The notes beneath the pieces are model-generated. The model was not told the DNA's origin. It did no database searches and was given only the letters and a program-made list of their open reading frames with translations. A DNA stretch of 64,000 bases. It comes from Acidobacteriota bacterium. Its GTDB lineage: Bacteria > Acidobacteriota > Terriglobia > Terriglobales > Acidobacteriaceae. Shown in pieces: positions 34,406 to 42,357 of this stretch. Every line of letters starts with the position of its first letter. The stretch's first letter is position 1. Where the stretch lies: positions 124,001 through 188,000 of the forward strand of contig JAJYBU010000001.1 of NCBI GenBank assembly GCA_021778845.1. Reading direction: 5' to 3'. The position numbers and the translations under genes were made by a program.

Positions 34406-36202
34406 TCAGGCTGCGGTGCCTTCGAAGTGCTGCTCAATCTCTTCGAGCGTCTTGCCTTTAGTTTCCGGCAAAAAGAAGGTCGCCGTCAGCAGGTAGATCA
34501 CCGTAAATCCCGCGAAGAGAAAGAACATCGTCGAGTAGCCGTACTTGCTCGCGACGGGCAGAAAGATCACGGCCAGGGTCGTCGACACCAGTTGATTGAT
34601 CACCAGCGCAATGCTCATCCCAATCGAGCGAATTCTCGTCGGCATCAACTCCGACAGCGCCAGCCACACGCACACCCCCGGCCCCACCGCATAGAACGCA
34701 ATGAACGAGAACAGTGCCAGCGCCACCATCGATCCATACCTGGCACTTGGAATTCGTCCTACACGCGCGCGTTCAATTCTCAGCGGCGCACTCCGCGCGG
34801 CCGTGATGCTCGCGAAGGGATTCTTGAAGAACGCCTCAACAGCATTGGACGGCACGCTCCCCTCGCGCGTAATGTGAATCGGCGCTGCGGCCGCATCATC
34901 GGACCGCACATACGTTGTCTCTCCGGTGAATCCCCCGTAGGAATAGATCACCGCCAGCGACGCGTGATCCGCCAACGATCCCGCGCCCGTAAAGCCACTG
35001 GCCGCAAGCAAGCGCGCAGCCTCGGCCGGATCAAAACGCAGCGTCAACTCCTGCTCGGGCCCCACCATGGACTGCACCGCTGATCGACACTCCAGGTCGG
35101 CTTTCTCCGTCCGCCAGAACATCCCGCCAATCACGATCAGCGTCAGCGCCAGTCCCGTGCTCCCGAGGAGCAACAAAAATCTTCGCCCTTTCTTGTCCAC
35201 CAGCATCATGCCCACAATCGTCATCAGGAAGTTCACCGTCGTGAACAGCACATAGCCCCAATGCGACGCCAGATCCGAAAGTCCGCTCTGCAGCAGGATG
35301 CTCGTGTTGTACCCGATGATCGAGTTCACGCCCGTCGCCGTATTGCAAAACAGAATCACGCAAGCCAGCAGAAACGGCACCACGTACTTCCGTCGCAGCA
35401 GCGAATCCGTATGCTCCTGCGCGACATCCCGCTGTGCCGAGGTCGCCTTCATCTCGGACAATTCAAGCTCGGCACCCGCCCGCGTGCGCGAGCGCAGCAG
35501 CGATGCCAGCGCCGCCTCCTGCCTGCCCTTGCGAAACAGCCAGCGCGGCGACTCGCCCACAAAAAAACTTCCCACCACAAACACAATTCCCGGCGGCAGC
35601 GAGATCCAGAAGATGTGCCGCCACGCCTGGTCCTTCACATGAAACAGCGTGGCCGCGCTCGCCGTCGCAGCAACGGCCTCCACGCGATAGCTGTAATAGA
35701 TTCCGATCAGCGCCGCCGCCACAATGCCGAACGTAAGCAGCCACTGGAAGATCCCCGTCCCCTTGCCGCGATTCGACGATGGCAGGCACTCCGCGAGATA
35801 CAGTGGCACCACCACCCCAATAAACCCGCCACTCATCCCTTGCAGCAGCCGTCCCAGAAACAGCGGCCCATACCCATGCGACAGCGCAATCAGTGGAATG
35901 CTCACCACGAAGATCAATCCACTCAGCGTCATCACCGGCTTGCGCCCCAGCCAGTCCGCCGTCACACCCGCAAAGATCGTCGAGAGCACACTGCCCAGCA
36001 GCACCGCCGCCACAATCACCGAAAGCTGCGCCGCATCGAGGCCCGATGTGGCTTCGAGATAAGGCAGCGCGCCGCCGATAATTCCTACGTCCACTCCATA
36101 CAGCAACCCGCCAAGCCCTGCTACGCAAAGCAGCAATATGTTGTAGCCGCGCCGTCCACCTTCGATCGTCTCCGAAGCAACTACAGTCGATTCCTCATGC
36201 AT
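34406..36202 (-). CDS. Sugar-porter family MFS transporter with a large inserted domain
   Basis: 598 aa; ordinary sugar porters have about 450-500. Family motifs: DVGIIGGALPYL in helix 1, ADWLGRKP, GRLLQGMSGG, PLYLAECLPSSNRG, GESPRWLF, and the final LPETKGKTLEEIE. Between helix 9 (about residue 362) and helix 10 (about residue 492) lies an extra segment of some 125 residues, WRTEKADLECRSAV to RIPSARYGS, hydrophilic and predicted to be extracytoplasmic. Likely proton-coupled hexose or polyol uptake; the role of the insertion is unknown. Confidence 0.9.
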   Translation of the reverse strand: MHEESTVVASETIEGGRRGYNILLLCVAGLGGLLYGVDVGIIGGALPYLEATSGLDAAQLSVIVAAVLLGSVLSTIFAGVTADWLGRKPVMTLSGLIFVVSIPLIALSHGYGPLFLGRLLQGMSGGFIGVVVPLYLAECLPSSNRGKGTGIFQWLLTFGIVAAALIGIYYSYRVEAVAATASAATLFHVKDQAWRHIFWISLPPGIVFVVGSFFVGESPRWLFRKGRQEAALASLLRSRTRAGAELELSEMKATSAQRDVAQEHTDSLLRRKYVVPFLLACVILFCNTATGVNSIIGYNTSILLQSGLSDLASHWGYVLFTTVNFLMTIVGMMLVDKKGRRFLLLLGSTGLALTLIVIGGMFWRTEKADLECRSAVQSMVGPEQELTLRFDPAEAARLLAASGFTGAGSLADHASLAVIYSYGGFTGETTYVRSDDAAAAPIHITREGSVPSNAVEAFFKNPFASITAARSAPLRIERARVGRIPSARYGSMVALALFSFIAFYAVGPGVCVWLALSELMPTRIRSIGMSIALVINQLVSTTLAVIFLPVASKYGYSTMFFLFAGFTVIYLLTATFFLPETKGKTLEEIEQHFEGTAA

Positions 36203-36593: not shown

Positions 36594-37940
36594 CTACACC
36601 ACGTCATCCAAGGCAAGGCCATTCGTCTCCGGCCCCAGATACATGCCGATAAACGTGATCATCGCTCCGATCACAAGGATCACCGCAGGCGACAGCCATA
36701 AGTCATTGCCCTCGATCGCCTTGACGAACGGTATCTTATGCGCCCACCACACATAGATACTGAACCATGCACCAATCAGCGCGCCGGACGAATAGCCAAA
36801 GCCCAGGCCCACAGCGCGCCTCTTGGTAGGAAACCGCTCCGATAAATACGCCGGAAGCATACCCCACGCCAGCTTGCACATCGCAGCCATCACCGTACCC
36901 GCTACCGCCAGCGGGACATTCTTCGCCATCACAGCATGATGCAAAACAAAGAAGGTAGGTATTCCAACAAGCACCAGAACAAAGGAGTACACAAGTGTCA
37001 GTCTCCTTCTGCCCAGATAGTCTGAAATCCATCCATAGAAATTATATCCAAGGAAGGCGAGGAATAGAGCAAACCCATAGATCCAGGCAAAGGTCGTTGT
37101 ATCAAATCCCTTGCCATGCATGGTTAATATCTCGGGCAGAAATCCATAGACGGAATAATCAGTAAGAAACAGTCCGCACATCACAAGAAAGACCTGCAGG
37201 AACGTCCACAGCGCGGGTCTTTTAAACAGACTAAAGAAAGGTGCCTTTTCAATGTCACCCTTCTCAATAGCCACCATAAACACTGGCGATTCTCTCGTAT
37301 AGAACCGAATTAATAACCCTGCCAGCACTGGAACGACACCGGTGGCAAATGTAATTCGCCAGCCGATCGTCAGCATGGCATCTTTACCCAGCACCATACT
37401 GATGAGCGCAAAAACAACGGCTCCAAACACATAGCCCAGTGGAAACCCCGACTGCACAAACCCACCCACGCGGCCCCGAATATCTCTGGGGGAGAACTCG
37501 ATGGCGAAGGTGTGTCCTACGGCATATTCTCCGCCAAATAAAATACCCATAAATAATCGAAGCAGTGCGAATAAAAACCATGCCAGTGCTCCGACGCTAT
37601 GGTATGTCGGCAGAAAGGCCGCAAGCAGTGAACAAACGCCCACGCCCGAGATCGTAATCATCAGCAGCTTCCTTCTGCCGATCTTGTCCCCATAATGCCC
37701 AAAAATCGCAGACCCCAGCGGCCTGCCCGCCATGGTAATCGAGTAGGTAAGAAGGATGACGATATATCGCCACGCCGGGCTACCAGCGCTAGACGTAAAT
37801 ATCTTGGTCAGGATCGGCGCCATCACCAGGACCAGCGCCATGTCGTAGGAGTCCAGCATAAAGCCGATCCACTGGCCATACATTGCTGGATAAAATCCCT
37901 TTGGGAACCGCGCAGGCTCCTGGGTCACAGAATGACTCAT
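36594..37940 (-). CDS. MFS transporter, metabolite:H+ symporter type
   Basis: 448 aa, 12 helices. Motifs of the metabolite:H+ symporter branch (ShiA, ProP, KgtP relatives): GFMLDSYDMALVLVM in helix 1, GHYGDKIGRRK, LFGGEYAVGHTFAIEF, and a repeat of the motif as DYLGRRRLT. Probably imports an organic acid or related anion. MSHSV start with GGAGAG five bases upstream. Stands between the sugar porter and the bd-like cytochrome operon. Confidence 0.88.
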   Translation of the reverse strand: MSHSVTQEPARFPKGFYPAMYGQWIGFMLDSYDMALVLVMAPILTKIFTSSAGSPAWRYIVILLTYSITMAGRPLGSAIFGHYGDKIGRRKLLMITISGVGVCSLLAAFLPTYHSVGALAWFLFALLRLFMGILFGGEYAVGHTFAIEFSPRDIRGRVGGFVQSGFPLGYVFGAVVFALISMVLGKDAMLTIGWRITFATGVVPVLAGLLIRFYTRESPVFMVAIEKGDIEKAPFFSLFKRPALWTFLQVFLVMCGLFLTDYSVYGFLPEILTMHGKGFDTTTFAWIYGFALFLAFLGYNFYGWISDYLGRRRLTLVYSFVLVLVGIPTFFVLHHAVMAKNVPLAVAGTVMAAMCKLAWGMLPAYLSERFPTKRRAVGLGFGYSSGALIGAWFSIYVWWAHKIPFVKAIEGNDLWLSPAVILVIGAMITFIGMYLGPETNGLALDDVV

Positions 37941-38269
37941 GTGTCTCTCCAAGATGAAATGCGGGAGGAAAGAATACTACTCCATCCAATGCATCTCAGA
38001 ATGTGATCGCAGACATCATTTGTGCCGGTCCAACCTCGACTGCCCGCGAGGTCCCTGCGCCCATGTCCACTCCGAAGGTTGCGAACCCAAGGCCCGCTGC
38101 AACTTCAGCACCCTCGCCCGACCCTGCCTCGCGCACTCTATTCCACGACAAACTCGTCGCCGATCTCCATACTCCCCGGTACAATTCAGCGTAGACACGG
38201 GCTAACCTCGCAGCCTCCAAGCCCTGCGGAGCATTGCTCCCAGTCATCGCCCGTACGAGAGGAAGCATC
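37941..38269. other. Divergent promoter region, 329 bases
   Basis: Lies between the MHS transporter (minus) and the bd-like cytochrome operon (plus), so it must hold both promoters. Both strands carry short open frames (63 and 91 codons) that overlap each other and show no domain; I do not call them. Confidence 0.5.
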
Positions 38270-39874
38270 ATGAACTATCCGATCTGGGACGTAGCCTTTG
38301 GCGCCGGCCTCCTCATCGCGCTCGTCGCCGGTCTCCACGTCTTCGTCTCCCACTTCGCCGTCGGCGGCGGCCTCTTTCTGGTCCTCACCGAGCGCAAGGC
38401 CCGCAGAACCAACGACGCCCCCCTGCTCAACTGGCTCAAGTCTCACACCAAATTCTTCGTCCTGCTCACCGTCGTCTTCGGAGCCGTCAGCGGCGTAGGC
38501 ATCTGGTTCACTATCGGCCTCATCAGTCCCACCGCCACCAGCGATCTCATCCACATCTTCGTCTGGGGCTGGGCTATCGAGTGGGTCTTCTTCTTCATCG
38601 AAATCACCGCCGCTCTCCTCTACCTCTACGGCTGGGACAAACTCGACCCCAAACTCCACGAGTGGTACGGATGGATCTACTTCATCGCCGCCTTCGCCAG
38701 CCTTGTCGTCATCAACGGCATCATCACGTTCATGCTCACCCCCGGCAGTTGGATCGACGTCCACAAATTCTGGATCGGTTTCTTCAACGCCACCTATCTC
38801 CCCGCCACGTTTTTCCGCACTGCCATCTGCATCGCTCTCGCCGGCATCTACGCTCTGCTCACCGCGAGCGTACAAAAAGACCTCGACCTCAAAGCTCGCA
38901 TCGTACGCTGGGGAGCGCTCTGGACGGTCCCCGCCCTCATCGCGCTTCCACTCTTCGGCTGGTGGTATATCCGCGAGATCCCCGCAGCCATCTTCGCCAG
39001 CGCGCGCGGCCCAATGCCCACCGCCACGCACTACGCATTTCTTGCCTGGACGCTCCTGGCTGTCACCTTCGTCCTGACCCTCTGGGCGCTGCTCCGCCCG
39101 AAGCATCTGCATCTCGCCTTCGCTCTGCTCGTAGCCCTCGTAGCCCTGGGCGCCATGGACTCCTTCGAGTTCGTCCGCGAAAGCGTCCGCAAGCCCTTTG
39201 TCATCGAGAACTATCTCTACGACAACTCCCTCTACGCCGCTGCCATGCCCGGCGACGGCGGCTTCACTATCGACAACCTAAACACCGTCGGAGTCCTCAA
39301 TGCGGCCACCTGGGTTCAGCACCGCACCATCACTCCCGGCAACCAGGTCAGCGTTGGCCGCGAGGTCTTCCGCGTCGAGTGCCAGGCCTGCCACACCCCC
39401 AACCACTATCGCGGCATCCATCAACTCATCGAGCAGCGCCAGTGGGATCCCACCACCGTCCATGCTATGCTGAGCGGCCTGGCTCTCATGCACAACGGCG
39501 TGATGCCGCCCTTCGCCGGCACCGATGCCGAACGCGACGCACTTGCCGCATACGTCAACTCCCTCCAGACCATCACCCCCAACCCCGCCACCTTCACCAA
39601 CGGCAAACTCGTCTTCGAGAACTACTGCTCCATGTGCCATCAGGACCGCACTGACGACATGCTCTTCACCAGCCTTGCCCCCGATCCCAAAGTCGCAGCC
39701 GACTCGCTCAAGGACCTGACCATTCTCTTCCCCCTTATGCCTGACCTCAAGCTCTCCGAAGCCCAGCGCACATCGCTCGTCCAGTGGATCAACACCCAAC
39801 GACCCGCGGTCCAGCATACGATGAACCACCCCCCGGCCAATCGACCCAGCCCAGCGTCCGAAGGAGGCAACTAG
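38270..39874 (+). CDS. CydA-like subunit fused to two c-type haem sites
   Basis: 534 aa. The N-terminal ~330 residues are membrane helices of the cytochrome bd superfamily: GLHVFVSHFAVGGG in helix 1 carries candidate haem His ligands, and AIEWVFFFIEITAALLYLYGW matches the two-Glu helix of CydA. The GRQPW motif and long quinol loop of CydA are not seen, nor an obvious counterpart of the b558 His. The C-terminal part has CQACH and CSMCH, two mono-haem cytochrome c units with Met candidates (MHNGVMPPF and LFPLMPDL). Good GAGAGGAAG before ATG. Second subunit starts two bases after the stop. Proposed: cytochrome c- or other-donor oxidoreductase, not a normal quinol oxidase. Confidence 0.8.
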   Translation: MNYPIWDVAFGAGLLIALVAGLHVFVSHFAVGGGLFLVLTERKARRTNDAPLLNWLKSHTKFFVLLTVVFGAVSGVGIWFTIGLISPTATSDLIHIFVWGWAIEWVFFFIEITAALLYLYGWDKLDPKLHEWYGWIYFIAAFASLVVINGIITFMLTPGSWIDVHKFWIGFFNATYLPATFFRTAICIALAGIYALLTASVQKDLDLKARIVRWGALWTVPALIALPLFGWWYIREIPAAIFASARGPMPTATHYAFLAWTLLAVTFVLTLWALLRPKHLHLAFALLVALVALGAMDSFEFVRESVRKPFVIENYLYDNSLYAAAMPGDGGFTIDNLNTVGVLNAATWVQHRTITPGNQVSVGREVFRVECQACHTPNHYRGIHQLIEQRQWDPTTVHAMLSGLALMHNGVMPPFAGTDAERDALAAYVNSLQTITPNPATFTNGKLVFENYCSMCHQDRTDDMLFTSLAPDPKVAADSLKDLTILFPLMPDLKLSEAQRTSLVQWINTQRPAVQHTMNHPPANRPSPASEGGN

Positions 39875-39875
39875 C

Positions 39876-40994
39876 ATGATCAACCCCAGCATGGTTCCCA
39901 CGCTCGACCCCAATCCCCTCCCCGCGCCCTACTGGGTCTTCAAGCTCCTGCTCCTGGTCACCTTCTTCCTCCACATGCTCGCCATGAACTTTATGATGGG
40001 TGGCGCATTCATGGCAATCGCCGCGCGATTCAGCTCCAACGGCAGCGAATACCGCAACCGCATCTTCGTGGACGTAGCGAAAAAAATCCCCACGTTGCTG
40101 GCCGCCACCATCACCCTCGGCATCGCTCCACTGCTCTTCGTGCAGGTCATCTACGGCCAGTACTTCTACACGTCGAGCATACTCATCGCGTGGCCCTGGT
40201 TCTTCGTCATCATCCTTCTTATTGCGGCCTACTATGGCTTTTACTTCGTCGCCTACAAAGGCAAGCGACGGCCCGGCGCTGCTGGATTCGTCCTGCTGGC
40301 CAGCCTCGCGCTGGTGCTCTTCATCGGCTTCATCTACTCCAACAACGTCACACTCATGCAGGTCCCCTCGCACTGGGCGGCCAAGTACTTCGCCAACCCC
40401 TCGGGCTGGAATCTCAACCTCTCCGAGCCCACGCTGATCCCGCGTTATCTTCACTTCGTCACCGCGGCCATCGCCGTCGGCGGCATCCTGCTCGTGCTCC
40501 TCGCGCTCGCTCGCTGGAAGCATGATCGCGACTACGCGCGCCACCTCTTCCAGTTCGGCGGTAAGGCCTTCATGTACGCCACCATGGCTCAGTTCCTGGT
40601 CGGCATGTGGTTCCTGGTCAGCCTGCCCCGCGATCTCCGCATGCTCTTCATGGGCGACAACACTCCTGCCACGGTTCTCTTCTCCGCAGGCCTCCTTGGC
40701 ACCGTCGCCGCTATCTTCCTCATGTCCGACGCCCTGCGCAAGGACAACATCCGCGTCGCAGCTTATGGCGTCACAGCCCTCACGGCCTTCATCATCCTCA
40801 CCATGGTCATCATGCGCGACATCCTCCGCGATGCCTACCTCGAGCCTTACTTCCACCCCCACCAGTTCCCCGTCCAGACCCAGTGGGCCGTCTTCCCCCT
40901 CTTCCTTGTGCTCTTCCTCGGCGGCGTAGCTCTCTGGCTCATCATGCTGAAACGCTACGGCCTTTTCACGAGCACCAAACCCACCGACATCTAG
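39876..40994 (+). CDS. Membrane subunit II of the bd-like, c-haem complex
   Basis: 372 aa, about nine predicted helices. FFLHMLAMNFMMGGAFMAIAARF and RYLHFVTAAIAVGGILLVLLA each hold a His in a CydA-like helix context, and TLGIAPLLFVQVIYGQYFY is a strongly conserved-looking segment. It looks more like a second CydA-type protein than like CydB. The ATG lies two bases after the previous stop, so translation is coupled and a 1:1 complex is expected in the inner membrane. No maturation gene (cydC/D) adjoins. Confidence 0.75.
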   Translation: MINPSMVPTLDPNPLPAPYWVFKLLLLVTFFLHMLAMNFMMGGAFMAIAARFSSNGSEYRNRIFVDVAKKIPTLLAATITLGIAPLLFVQVIYGQYFYTSSILIAWPWFFVIILLIAAYYGFYFVAYKGKRRPGAAGFVLLASLALVLFIGFIYSNNVTLMQVPSHWAAKYFANPSGWNLNLSEPTLIPRYLHFVTAAIAVGGILLVLLALARWKHDRDYARHLFQFGGKAFMYATMAQFLVGMWFLVSLPRDLRMLFMGDNTPATVLFSAGLLGTVAAIFLMSDALRKDNIRVAAYGVTALTAFIILTMVIMRDILRDAYLEPYFHPHQFPVQTQWAVFPLFLVLFLGGVALWLIMLKRYGLFTSTKPTDI

Positions 40995-41057: not shown

Positions 41058-42242
41058 TCAAGCCACGCGCCCGATCCCCACTCCAATCACATACGTCACA
41101 GCGCCTTCCAGCGCTCCAACAAACGTCATCTCCAGCCCACTGCTCCACCACGACCGAATCGTAATCAACGACTTCGCCGCGCCCACCGCAAAGTGCGCCA
41201 GCAACGAAACGATCGCAGCCACCACAATCGCCGGTACGCCCGCCAGAAAGAAGAACGGAATCACCGGTATCAGTGCTCCCACAGCCGTGGACAGCGCACC
41301 CGACGTTGCCGAAACCCACGGATTGCTCAGGCCCTCCTCACTCACATGCAGCCGTTCCCGCGCCAGCGCCTCCACCAGTTGTTCTTTCTTCTCCGCAATG
41401 TGGCCCACAAAGTGGTCCGCATCTTCCGCCGACAGCCCCCGCACCTGATATGTCAGCGATAGCAACTCCCGCGCCTCGGCCTCATTGTTCTCCACCGCGT
41501 CGCGTTCGCGCGCATACTCCGCCTCATAGATCTCGCGTTCGCTCTTGGCCGCCAGGTAAGCTCCCGCTCCCATCGAGAGCGCACTGGCAACCATGCCCGC
41601 CAGCCCCGCAATCAACACAAACTTGCTGTTGCCCAGCGTCGCTCCCGACACGCCCGACACAATCCCAAAGATCGCGCCCAACCCATCATTCACGCCATAG
41701 ATCGCATCGCCAATCCAGCTCGCCGCTCTCGGCTGGCCCCGCTCCCGCTCCGCCACCAGCTCGTCGAGCGCCTGCTGCGCCACCTCCGGCTCCAGCGGCG
41801 TCACCGGCAGATGGTGCCGAATCAGACCACCCAGCGTCAGGTAGTGGTCCGCCTCATCGGCAATCACCTCTTTCAGAATCTTGATGCTCTCCTCATCGCC
41901 CAGTTCGCGAATCTGTTTCCCGTAGCGAGCAATGTCGCGGCTCTCATCCAGCTCCAGGCGCCGCAACGCCAACTCATGCCCGCCAATGCGGTTGGCCAGC
42001 GAATCCGCCTCGCCCGTCTCCGGCCCGTCGTACCTCGGAATCGCCGCGCCGAGCACCGTCATCCGCGTCGCCCAAAGGTCCGCGTGGTGTTTCTCCGCCA
42101 GCGCCAGGTTGCGCAGCGTCCGCCGCCGCTGCGGGTCGCTCTCCTGCTCGGCCAGCGTGCGGTACGTGTGATATCCCCGCATCTCCGCCTGCCAGTTGCT
42201 GGAGAGCGCCTCGATAAGCTGTGCTGAATACTTGTCATTCAT
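41058..42242 (-). CDS. mbfA: Membrane-bound ferritin, MbfA type (ferritin-like plus VIT1/CCC1)
   Basis: 394 aa. N-terminal ferritin/rubrerythrin-like domain (residues about 5-150) with the carboxylate-His patterns EMRGYHTYRTLAEQE, EKHHADLW and EVIADEADHY for a di-iron site. C-terminal VIT1/CCC1 transporter domain beginning SWIGDAIYGVNDGLGAIFGIVSG, with the GAGAYLAAKSE segment and about five helices. Such fusions export iron and protect against iron and peroxide stress. ATG 42242 preferred over an in-frame TTG six codons upstream. Confidence 0.9.
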   Translation of the reverse strand: MNDKYSAQLIEALSSNWQAEMRGYHTYRTLAEQESDPQRRRTLRNLALAEKHHADLWATRMTVLGAAIPRYDGPETGEADSLANRIGGHELALRRLELDESRDIARYGKQIRELGDEESIKILKEVIADEADHYLTLGGLIRHHLPVTPLEPEVAQQALDELVAERERGQPRAASWIGDAIYGVNDGLGAIFGIVSGVSGATLGNSKFVLIAGLAGMVASALSMGAGAYLAAKSEREIYEAEYARERDAVENNEAEARELLSLTYQVRGLSAEDADHFVGHIAEKKEQLVEALARERLHVSEEGLSNPWVSATSGALSTAVGALIPVIPFFFLAGVPAIVVAAIVSLLAHFAVGAAKSLITIRSWWSSGLEMTFVGALEGAVTYVIGVGIGRVA

Positions 42243-42357
42243 AAAGAATTTCCGCCGCAATCATTAGGGATATCTGCGCTGTCTTTCGGTGGGTCCATTC
42301 AATTCTCGCTTAACCTATTGCCGTGCGCTGTGACGGGTTGCACTCAATCTCCAACCT

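Follow-up and report, generated by a model that had tools for sequence, protein, structure and literature searches.

A window of 64,000 nucleotides from contig JAJYBU010000001.1 of an Acidobacteriota bacterium (assembly GCA_021778845.1) was analysed, with positions counted from its first nucleotide. On its forward strand the window carries two adjacent genes, here called subunit I and subunit II, which an earlier note, made from the sequence alone, had described as a cytochrome bd-superfamily complex with two fused c-type haem domains. One base separates the stop codon of subunit I from the ATG of subunit II, and the genes form a tight two-gene operon; a scan for promoters and terminators returned nothing useful. 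The analysis described below suggests that the complex is quite probably a respiratory cytochrome c:O2 oxidoreductase of the OR-C kind within the cytochrome bd superfamily. Residue conservation was counted over 86 rows, which comprised the window, 82 rows of subunit I from 80 loci, and the loci L028-L030, and from which a 192-aa fragment at locus L068 had been dropped. The features of the operon are as follows:

38260..38263, + strand: AGGA, likely ribosome-binding site of subunit I, read from the sequence
38270..39874, + strand: subunit I gene (534 aa; ATG 38270, stop 39872-39874), predicted eight-helix CydA-type membrane core followed by two cytochrome c domains
38336..38338, + strand: H23, equivalent of E. 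coli CydA H19 (haem d ligand); H in 85/85 rows with a residue there
38579..38602, + strand: E104...E111, equivalents of E. coli E99 and E107 in transmembrane helix (TM) 3; each 86/86
39167..39196, + strand: end of TM8 with E300, R303, E304 and R307-K-P309, a degenerate GRQPW; E300, R303, E304, R307 and P309 each 86/86
39332..39565, + strand: first cytochrome c domain (Pfam residues 359-432)
39380-39394, + strand: CQACH, residues 371-375; C371, C374 and H375 each 86/86
39503-39505, + strand: axial Met412 of the first c domain; M in 85/85 rows
39587..39805, + strand: second cytochrome c domain, with approximate ends
39626-39640, + strand: CSMCH, residues 453-457; C453 in 58/58, C456 in 58/59 and H457 in 59/59 rows with a residue there
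39737-39739, + strand: probable axial Met490 of the second c domain; M in 56/59 rows with a residue there
39861..39867, + strand: AAGGAGG, likely ribosome-binding site of subunit II, read from the sequence
39876..40994, + strand: subunit II gene (372 aa; ATG 39876, stop ending at 40994), predicted nine-helix paralogue of subunit I (CydA'-like), without a c motif and without the conserved Glu pair

Subunit I: predicted fold, oxygen-site residues and c-type haem domains

In the Pfam scan, subunit I matched the family Cyt_bd_oxida_I (PF01654) with E=4.8e-12 (45.6 bits against a cut-off of 26.2; best stretch residues 15-230), and no match to the COX1 family of haem-copper oxidases was obtained up to E=1. 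The CydA-family score amounted to 42.3 bits, compared with 481.8 for the CydA of the same genome, and a profile comparison with canonical CydA gave E=2.9e-7 over 157 columns (residues 19-177). An AlphaFold2 model of subunit I was built on 14 sequences (mean predicted local distance difference test score, pLDDT, 74.0; predicted template modelling score, pTM, 0.65), with low to moderate confidence in the c-domain part. The model comprises eight long helices (10-46, 50-85, 98-120, 127-155, 176-199, 205-235, 248-275 and 282-314) with the c domains after them; the ninth helix of canonical CydA is missing. In a structure comparison by VIA-align, the model aligned with E. coli bd subunit I over 301-305 residues (Z 27.7). 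Ten bd oxidase entries occupied ranks 1-10, each by way of a CydA-type chain (Z 26.2-27.7, 297-312 residues, root-mean-square deviation 3.2-3.7), followed by membrane subunits of alternative complex III and polysulfide reductase with Z 17.1 and below. Foldseek agreed with VIA-align (9r2g_A, E=2.2e-7), and a PDB sequence search with residues 1-351 gave one weak CydA match, to the same chain (E=1.2e-4). Together, the Pfam match and the predicted CydA fold place subunit I in the cytochrome bd superfamily, as the earlier note had proposed.

In cytochrome bd, numbered as in E. coli, haem b558 is ligated by His186 and Met393, Glu445 is the ligand of haem b595, and haem d lies between His19 and Glu99; the G. 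thermodenitrificans enzyme has b595 and d in swapped positions (excerpts of PMC8324918 and PMC6853902). Subunit I was aligned with 24 CydA sequences from the family of the window, and the residue matches given here come from alignments, without superposed coordinates. The residues matching E. coli H19, E99, E107 and E445 were invariant, which argues against the earlier suggestion that the reaction may not be standard oxygen reduction; the N-terminal His region (H23) and the CydA helix with two Glu residues (E104 and E111), both pointed out at the time, were borne out. The E445 match is the least direct of the four, as it lies outside the confident local alignment and rests on the RKP/RQP motif: E304, within VREsvRKPF, aligns with the Glu of AExGRQPW. 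We take the Glu before GRQPW to be E445, the ligand of haem b595, because of this motif and of the Trp394/Glu398 spacing of four residues given in an excerpt of PMC8324918. Within the same motif, K308 occurred in 78/86 rows. Two features deviate from CydA. The two Glu residues of TM3 are seven residues apart in subunit I and eight in all 24 CydA sequences of the window's family. As the wider E. coli geometry has been put down to an inserted Leu101 (excerpt of PMC6853902), E104 may lie nearer to the iron, an arrangement like that of G. thermodenitrificans. In addition, the invariant E300 stands where CydA has Trp, four residues ahead of the b595-type Glu.

TM6 (205-235) and TM7 (248-275) are joined by about 12 residues in the model of subunit I, and the alignment with CydA has a gap there; the periplasmic quinol loop (Q-loop) is hence absent from the protein. 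No His occurred at the TM5 columns (window residues 172-202) in any of the 86 rows, nor was a Met conserved across them at the M393 position of TM7, and since both ligands are missing the b558 site appears to be lost as well. Neither an intact Q-loop nor intact b558 ligands were thus found by alignment with CydA or in the model, and the absence of a quinol site, which the earlier note had deduced from a missing GRQPW, is upheld on other grounds. GRQPW is indeed literally absent, but a degenerate R-K-P-[FY] stands at the matching place, and the stronger point is the loss of the whole Q-loop. The alignment does not bear out GRQPW as a quinol-loop motif, since it stands where TM8 ends, beyond the Q-loop region.

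The two fused c-haem domains were confirmed. Pfam recognised Cytochrome_CBB3 (E=2.8e-15) and Cytochrom_C (E=4.3e-08) in subunit I, two stretches each, in agreement with the CQACH and CSMCH motifs. The number of Lys and Arg residues in the loops, with loop limits set by hand from the model, was higher inside than outside in 86/86 rows (11 versus 3 in the window's protein), and by this positive-inside count the end of helix 8, and hence the c domains, are predicted to be periplasmic. The periplasm is the side where c-type haem is attached.

The number of CXXCH motifs over the 86 rows was two in 57, one in 28 and three in one, the last being a subunit I from Desulfobulbaceae (L104:8281-10056). 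In a midpoint-rooted tree of subunit I, 26 of the 28 one-haem rows fell on one side, together with a single two-haem row (L070), at a fork whose support (94/83) lies just below the mark set by the tool. The remaining one-haem rows, L057 and L067, sit in the two-haem group; L067 is cut by the contig end and L057 stops 125 bases before it. Since the starred branches of the tree require the two-haem label to change five times or more, either the second c-haem has been gained or lost more than once or some of the counts are artefacts.

Subunit II, gene pairing and spread

Up to E=1, subunit II was matched neither by Pfam, its CydB family PF02322 included, nor by NCBIfam; the two collections have no model that recognises it. 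A PDB sequence search gave chance-level matches only. Compared with the profile of subunit I, it matched with E=1.4e-8 when 13-14 sequences were used and with E=1.9e-13 over 280 columns with larger sets. The match to canonical CydA was weak (E=0.015, probability 3%), so that the earlier description of subunit II as CydA-like is correct if taken to mean that it is paralogous to subunit I. No match to the CydB profile was found (E=0.13). A CydA-CydB control under the same profile settings also remained blank (E=0.15); a lack of CydB signal in sequence is thus to be expected even between true structural relatives and does not exclude a CydB origin. An AlphaFold2 model of subunit II, built on 13 sequences (mean pLDDT 79.8, pTM 0.81), contains nine long helices, and in the structure comparison each of the ten bd entries listed was matched best through its CydA chain (Z 25.0-28.4). 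Foldseek ranked a CydB chain first (1.0e-4 versus 1.8e-4 for CydA of the same entry), which counts against excluding CydB. A CydB identity is thus unsupported by profiles, and Foldseek alone ties CydA and CydB. At the residue level, H33 of subunit II (76/76) occupies the place of H23 in subunit I, and no Glu was conserved at 70% or more. We read subunit II, from its profiles and predicted fold, as a CydA'-like paralogue of subunit I rather than a recognisable CydB, and it is probably poor in haem. A divergent subunit II at L031:9938-11284 carries its own C-terminal CSNCH motif.

To determine how the two genes are distributed, 200 class genomes were searched for each, at E<=1e-10 for subunit I and at E<=1e-6 for subunit II; the two draws are taken as the same set because the visible genomes without a match also agree. 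Each subunit was found in 15/200 genomes, the window's own included, and these were the same 15; the chance of such identity is about 7e-23 under independence of genomes, a condition that does not hold. In one of them (G075), the two matches lie on different contigs. A wider collection came from 480 contig stretches matched by peptide patterns, 445 of which encode a relative, and the best 80 loci were kept. In 74 of the 80, subunit II is the next gene downstream in the same orientation (cut by the contig end in L037), and in the other six (L049, L057, L059, L067, L091 and L092) the contig ends within 164 bases. The hosts include Acidobacteriota, Calditrichota, Ignavibacteriota, Zixiibacteriota, Armatimonadota, Methylomirabilota and others. 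With subunit I of locus L030 as the query, 82/396 phylum genomes gave a match at E<=1e-60. At two loci (L075:5378-9087 and L101:9950-13719) a tandem pair of subunit I genes precedes a single subunit II, and the tandem copies belong to different parts of the tree.

Proposed electron donor and reaction

The strongest evidence on the donor is an association with genes for Rieske proteins and cytochrome b, and it is direct for two groups of relatives, L028-L030 and L150-L159. L029:4391-9049 and L030:5788-9849 have the order subunit II - Rieske - cytochrome b - subunit I; in L029 the last two are separated by a small open frame of about 136 codons. At L028, which reaches a contig end, the frame just upstream of subunit I looks, by eye, like the end of a cytochrome b. 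The three loci form one clade (support 100/100). L150-L159 are the ten best phylum matches to the L030 subunit I (47-71% identical), for each of which about 1.5 kb was fetched; L150 comes from the same genome as L029 (G103). A cytochrome b gene lies upstream of subunit I in 10/10 of them, recognised by motif in nine and by reading frames in L151, and a Rieske motif was present within the fetched stretch in five (L151, L152, L154, L155 and L159). Pfam confirmed the four cytochrome b proteins sampled (L030, L151, L152 and L159) and one Rieske protein (L030). In the eight of the ten whose subunit I was caught by motif, it has a single CXXCH. In these bc-linked relatives, the c-haem of subunit I probably substitutes for the c subunit of a Rieske/cytochrome b complex. 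This agrees with the earlier expectation that the donor would be a c-type cytochrome or another carrier, here a Rieske/cytochrome b complex; for the two-haem clade of the window, a donor of this kind is suggested by analogy.

Based on these results, the following route is proposed. Electrons would arrive in the periplasm from a c-type cytochrome, reduced by a bc-type or alternative complex III, and would enter the two C-terminal c-haems of subunit I. From there they would pass to a di-haem O2 site in the CydA-type core, at the positions of b595 and d, with the b558 and quinol sites bypassed, and water would be formed there from O2 and cytoplasmic protons. As a haem-poor CydA paralogue, subunit II would stand in for CydB. 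In line with such a route, the host genome has genes for cytochrome b (two C-terminal domains), two of the NrfD family, of which one lies on contig C45 at a distance of about 6 kb from a COX1 gene, and three of the cytochrome c assembly family.

We also consider, as a tentative extension that we would rather doubt than assume, that OR-C enzymes provide the oxidase half of a respiratory unit of the bc-bd type, the two-haem form of the window being a stand-alone version whose second c-haem docks a soluble or complex-bound cytochrome c. In some relatives, Rieske protein, cytochrome b and the bd-type c-haem subunit would come from one gene cluster, and electrons from quinol would run through the Q-cycle and then directly to the bd-type O2 site. 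Such a unit would give a bd-type oxidase an energy yield up to twice as high, a figure taken from textbook stoichiometry, and would not need soluble cytochrome c.

Several points weigh against a respiratory role fed by cytochrome c. The enzyme is known here from its genes and from models, and as the genome already holds a canonical CydA with CydB beside it and three COX1-family genes, it is not clear why a further oxidase would be needed. The operons linked to bc genes come from relatives of L030, a locus at which subunit I shares only about 43% identity with that of the window, and L150 has a further small open frame between cytochrome b and subunit I. Clustering of neighbouring open reading frames (pairs 25-85% identical), together with the neighbours listed for part of the 80 loci, found no conserved neighbour beyond subunit II for the window's clade, the exceptions being generic response regulators and, in close relatives, an exporter of the VIT1 type. 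Finally, with b558 lost and E300 in place of Trp, the chemistry of the active site may differ.

The alternative that survives best, although unlikely, keeps the architecture and the electron entry and assigns the enzyme a protective task as a cytochrome c-fed nitric oxide (NO), peroxide or O2-scavenging enzyme. The other terminal oxidases of the genome would fit such a task, as would the rubrerythrin-VIT1 metal exporter gene that adjoins the operon both in the window and at several closely related loci of the Granulicella type, and O2 scavenging and NO reduction are named in PMC5900883 as other roles of such oxidases in anaerobic Acidobacteria. However, the O2-site residues are the same as in CydA, the association with the exporter is confined to near relatives, and the bc-linked relatives look respiratory. 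Less probable still is a quinol oxidase whose quinol site is new and lies elsewhere, for instance within subunit II, and whose c-haems are accessories. The archaeal CydAA', likewise made of two CydA paralogues, was reportedly described by Murali, Gennis and Hemp in 2021 as oxidising quinol; against this stand the loss of both Q-loop and b558 and the retention of the first c domain in 86/86 rows.

Least credible of all is a reverse flow, in which a membrane dehydrogenase would oxidise a small substrate and hand the electrons on to the c-haems that it carries, a scheme put forward for the urate oxidase PuuD: PuuD shares eight helices, N-out/C-out topology and a C-terminal cytochrome c (excerpt of PMC4562309), but subunit I retains the residues of the CydA high-spin haems and its likeness to PuuD was not significant in profile comparison. 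The PuuD-set profile gave E=0.32 against subunit I, 0.14 against CydA and 0.033 against subunit II (15 columns), and a wider PuuD-type set gave one weak, non-significant signal against subunit II (E=0.0013, probability 19%); a PuuD-like dehydrogenase is thus unsupported. Urate_ox_N (PF06181) had no match in the Pfam scan of subunit I and none in the host genome. Membrane domains of the Urate_ox_N type occur in 36/121 class genomes, and the 18 proteins extracted from 20 such loci (L180-L199), the set that gave the weak signal against subunit II, are without CXXCH.

Related systems, host genome and neighbouring genes

The preferred reading, a cytochrome c:O2 oxidoreductase, places the enzyme beside systems that have been named before. 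Murali, Gennis and Hemp (ISME J, 2021) are said to have described the OR-C family as a CydA-type core without quinol site and with a fused c-type haem domain. By that definition, subunit I appears to have the features of OR-C, and the enzyme is a two-haem member of this already named kind. The subfamily name is in use (excerpts of PMC13189123 and PMC10839748), OR-C profiles were employed in an ISME J study of 2024 (excerpt of PMC11707229), and in 2018 bd-like subunits 'with a cytochrome C domain' were listed for Chloracidobacterium thermophilum and Thermoanaerobaculum aquaticum (PMC5900883, Table 2 note c). The latter share the phylum and a CydA-like catalytic subunit with cytochrome c, a likeness taken from the table footnote, which does not give the number of c-haems. 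The novelty is lower than was implied earlier: the literature searched, as far as the excerpts reach, contained no biochemical study of an OR-C enzyme, but neither the family nor its c-domain subunits are new. The most useful new lead is the association of the relatives with Rieske/cytochrome b genes. Cytochrome bd is taught as a quinol oxidase, and a widespread cytochrome c-fed branch would alter what is concluded on respiratory chains and energy yield from genomes of Acidobacteria and many uncultured phyla.

Canonical CydAB (qOR) has the same fold, the same O2-site residues and two large subunits; the window enzyme differs in lacking the Q-loop, the b558 ligands and a recognisable CydB, and in its added c-haems. 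A second subunit that is a CydA paralogue, as indicated by the profiles, is the feature it shares with the CydAA' type. OR-N enzymes are not known to have a fused c domain, and subunit I, with two c domains and eight helices, does not have OR-N features. CydAA' and OR-N (Nitrospina, Nitrospira) also have a CydA paralogue as second subunit and a proposed cytochrome c donor (excerpt of PMC10839748), and OR-N is described in the same source (ISME Commun 2024) as likely using cytochrome c and as uncharacterised. The bd-like protein of Nitrospina has 14 helices, three of them replacing the Q-loop, and the excerpt of PMC3578206 mentions no fused c domain, in contrast to the eight helices and two c domains found here. 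PuuD resembles subunit I in its eight helices and C-terminal cytochrome c, without a significant profile match.

The host, a Granulicella-like soil acidobacterium, is represented by a 3.77 Mb draft genome in 79 contigs. The closest named relative of subunit I is encoded in a Granulicella metagenome-assembled genome (L033; 92% identity in the best segment, 95% over 320 core columns), and Granulicella sp. L46 (locus L071), apparently an isolate, also carries the operon. The genes flanking the operon are both on the - strand and unrelated to it. Upstream lies a major facilitator superfamily (MFS) transporter (36594-37952) and downstream, convergent with the operon, the metal exporter-like rubrerythrin-VIT1 fusion (41058-42260). 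A second MFS gene in the window (34409-36202, - strand) encodes a sugar-porter family protein of 598 aa, in which the matches to transporter models stop near residue 368 and restart near 494; this gap suggests an extra segment of roughly 100 residues.

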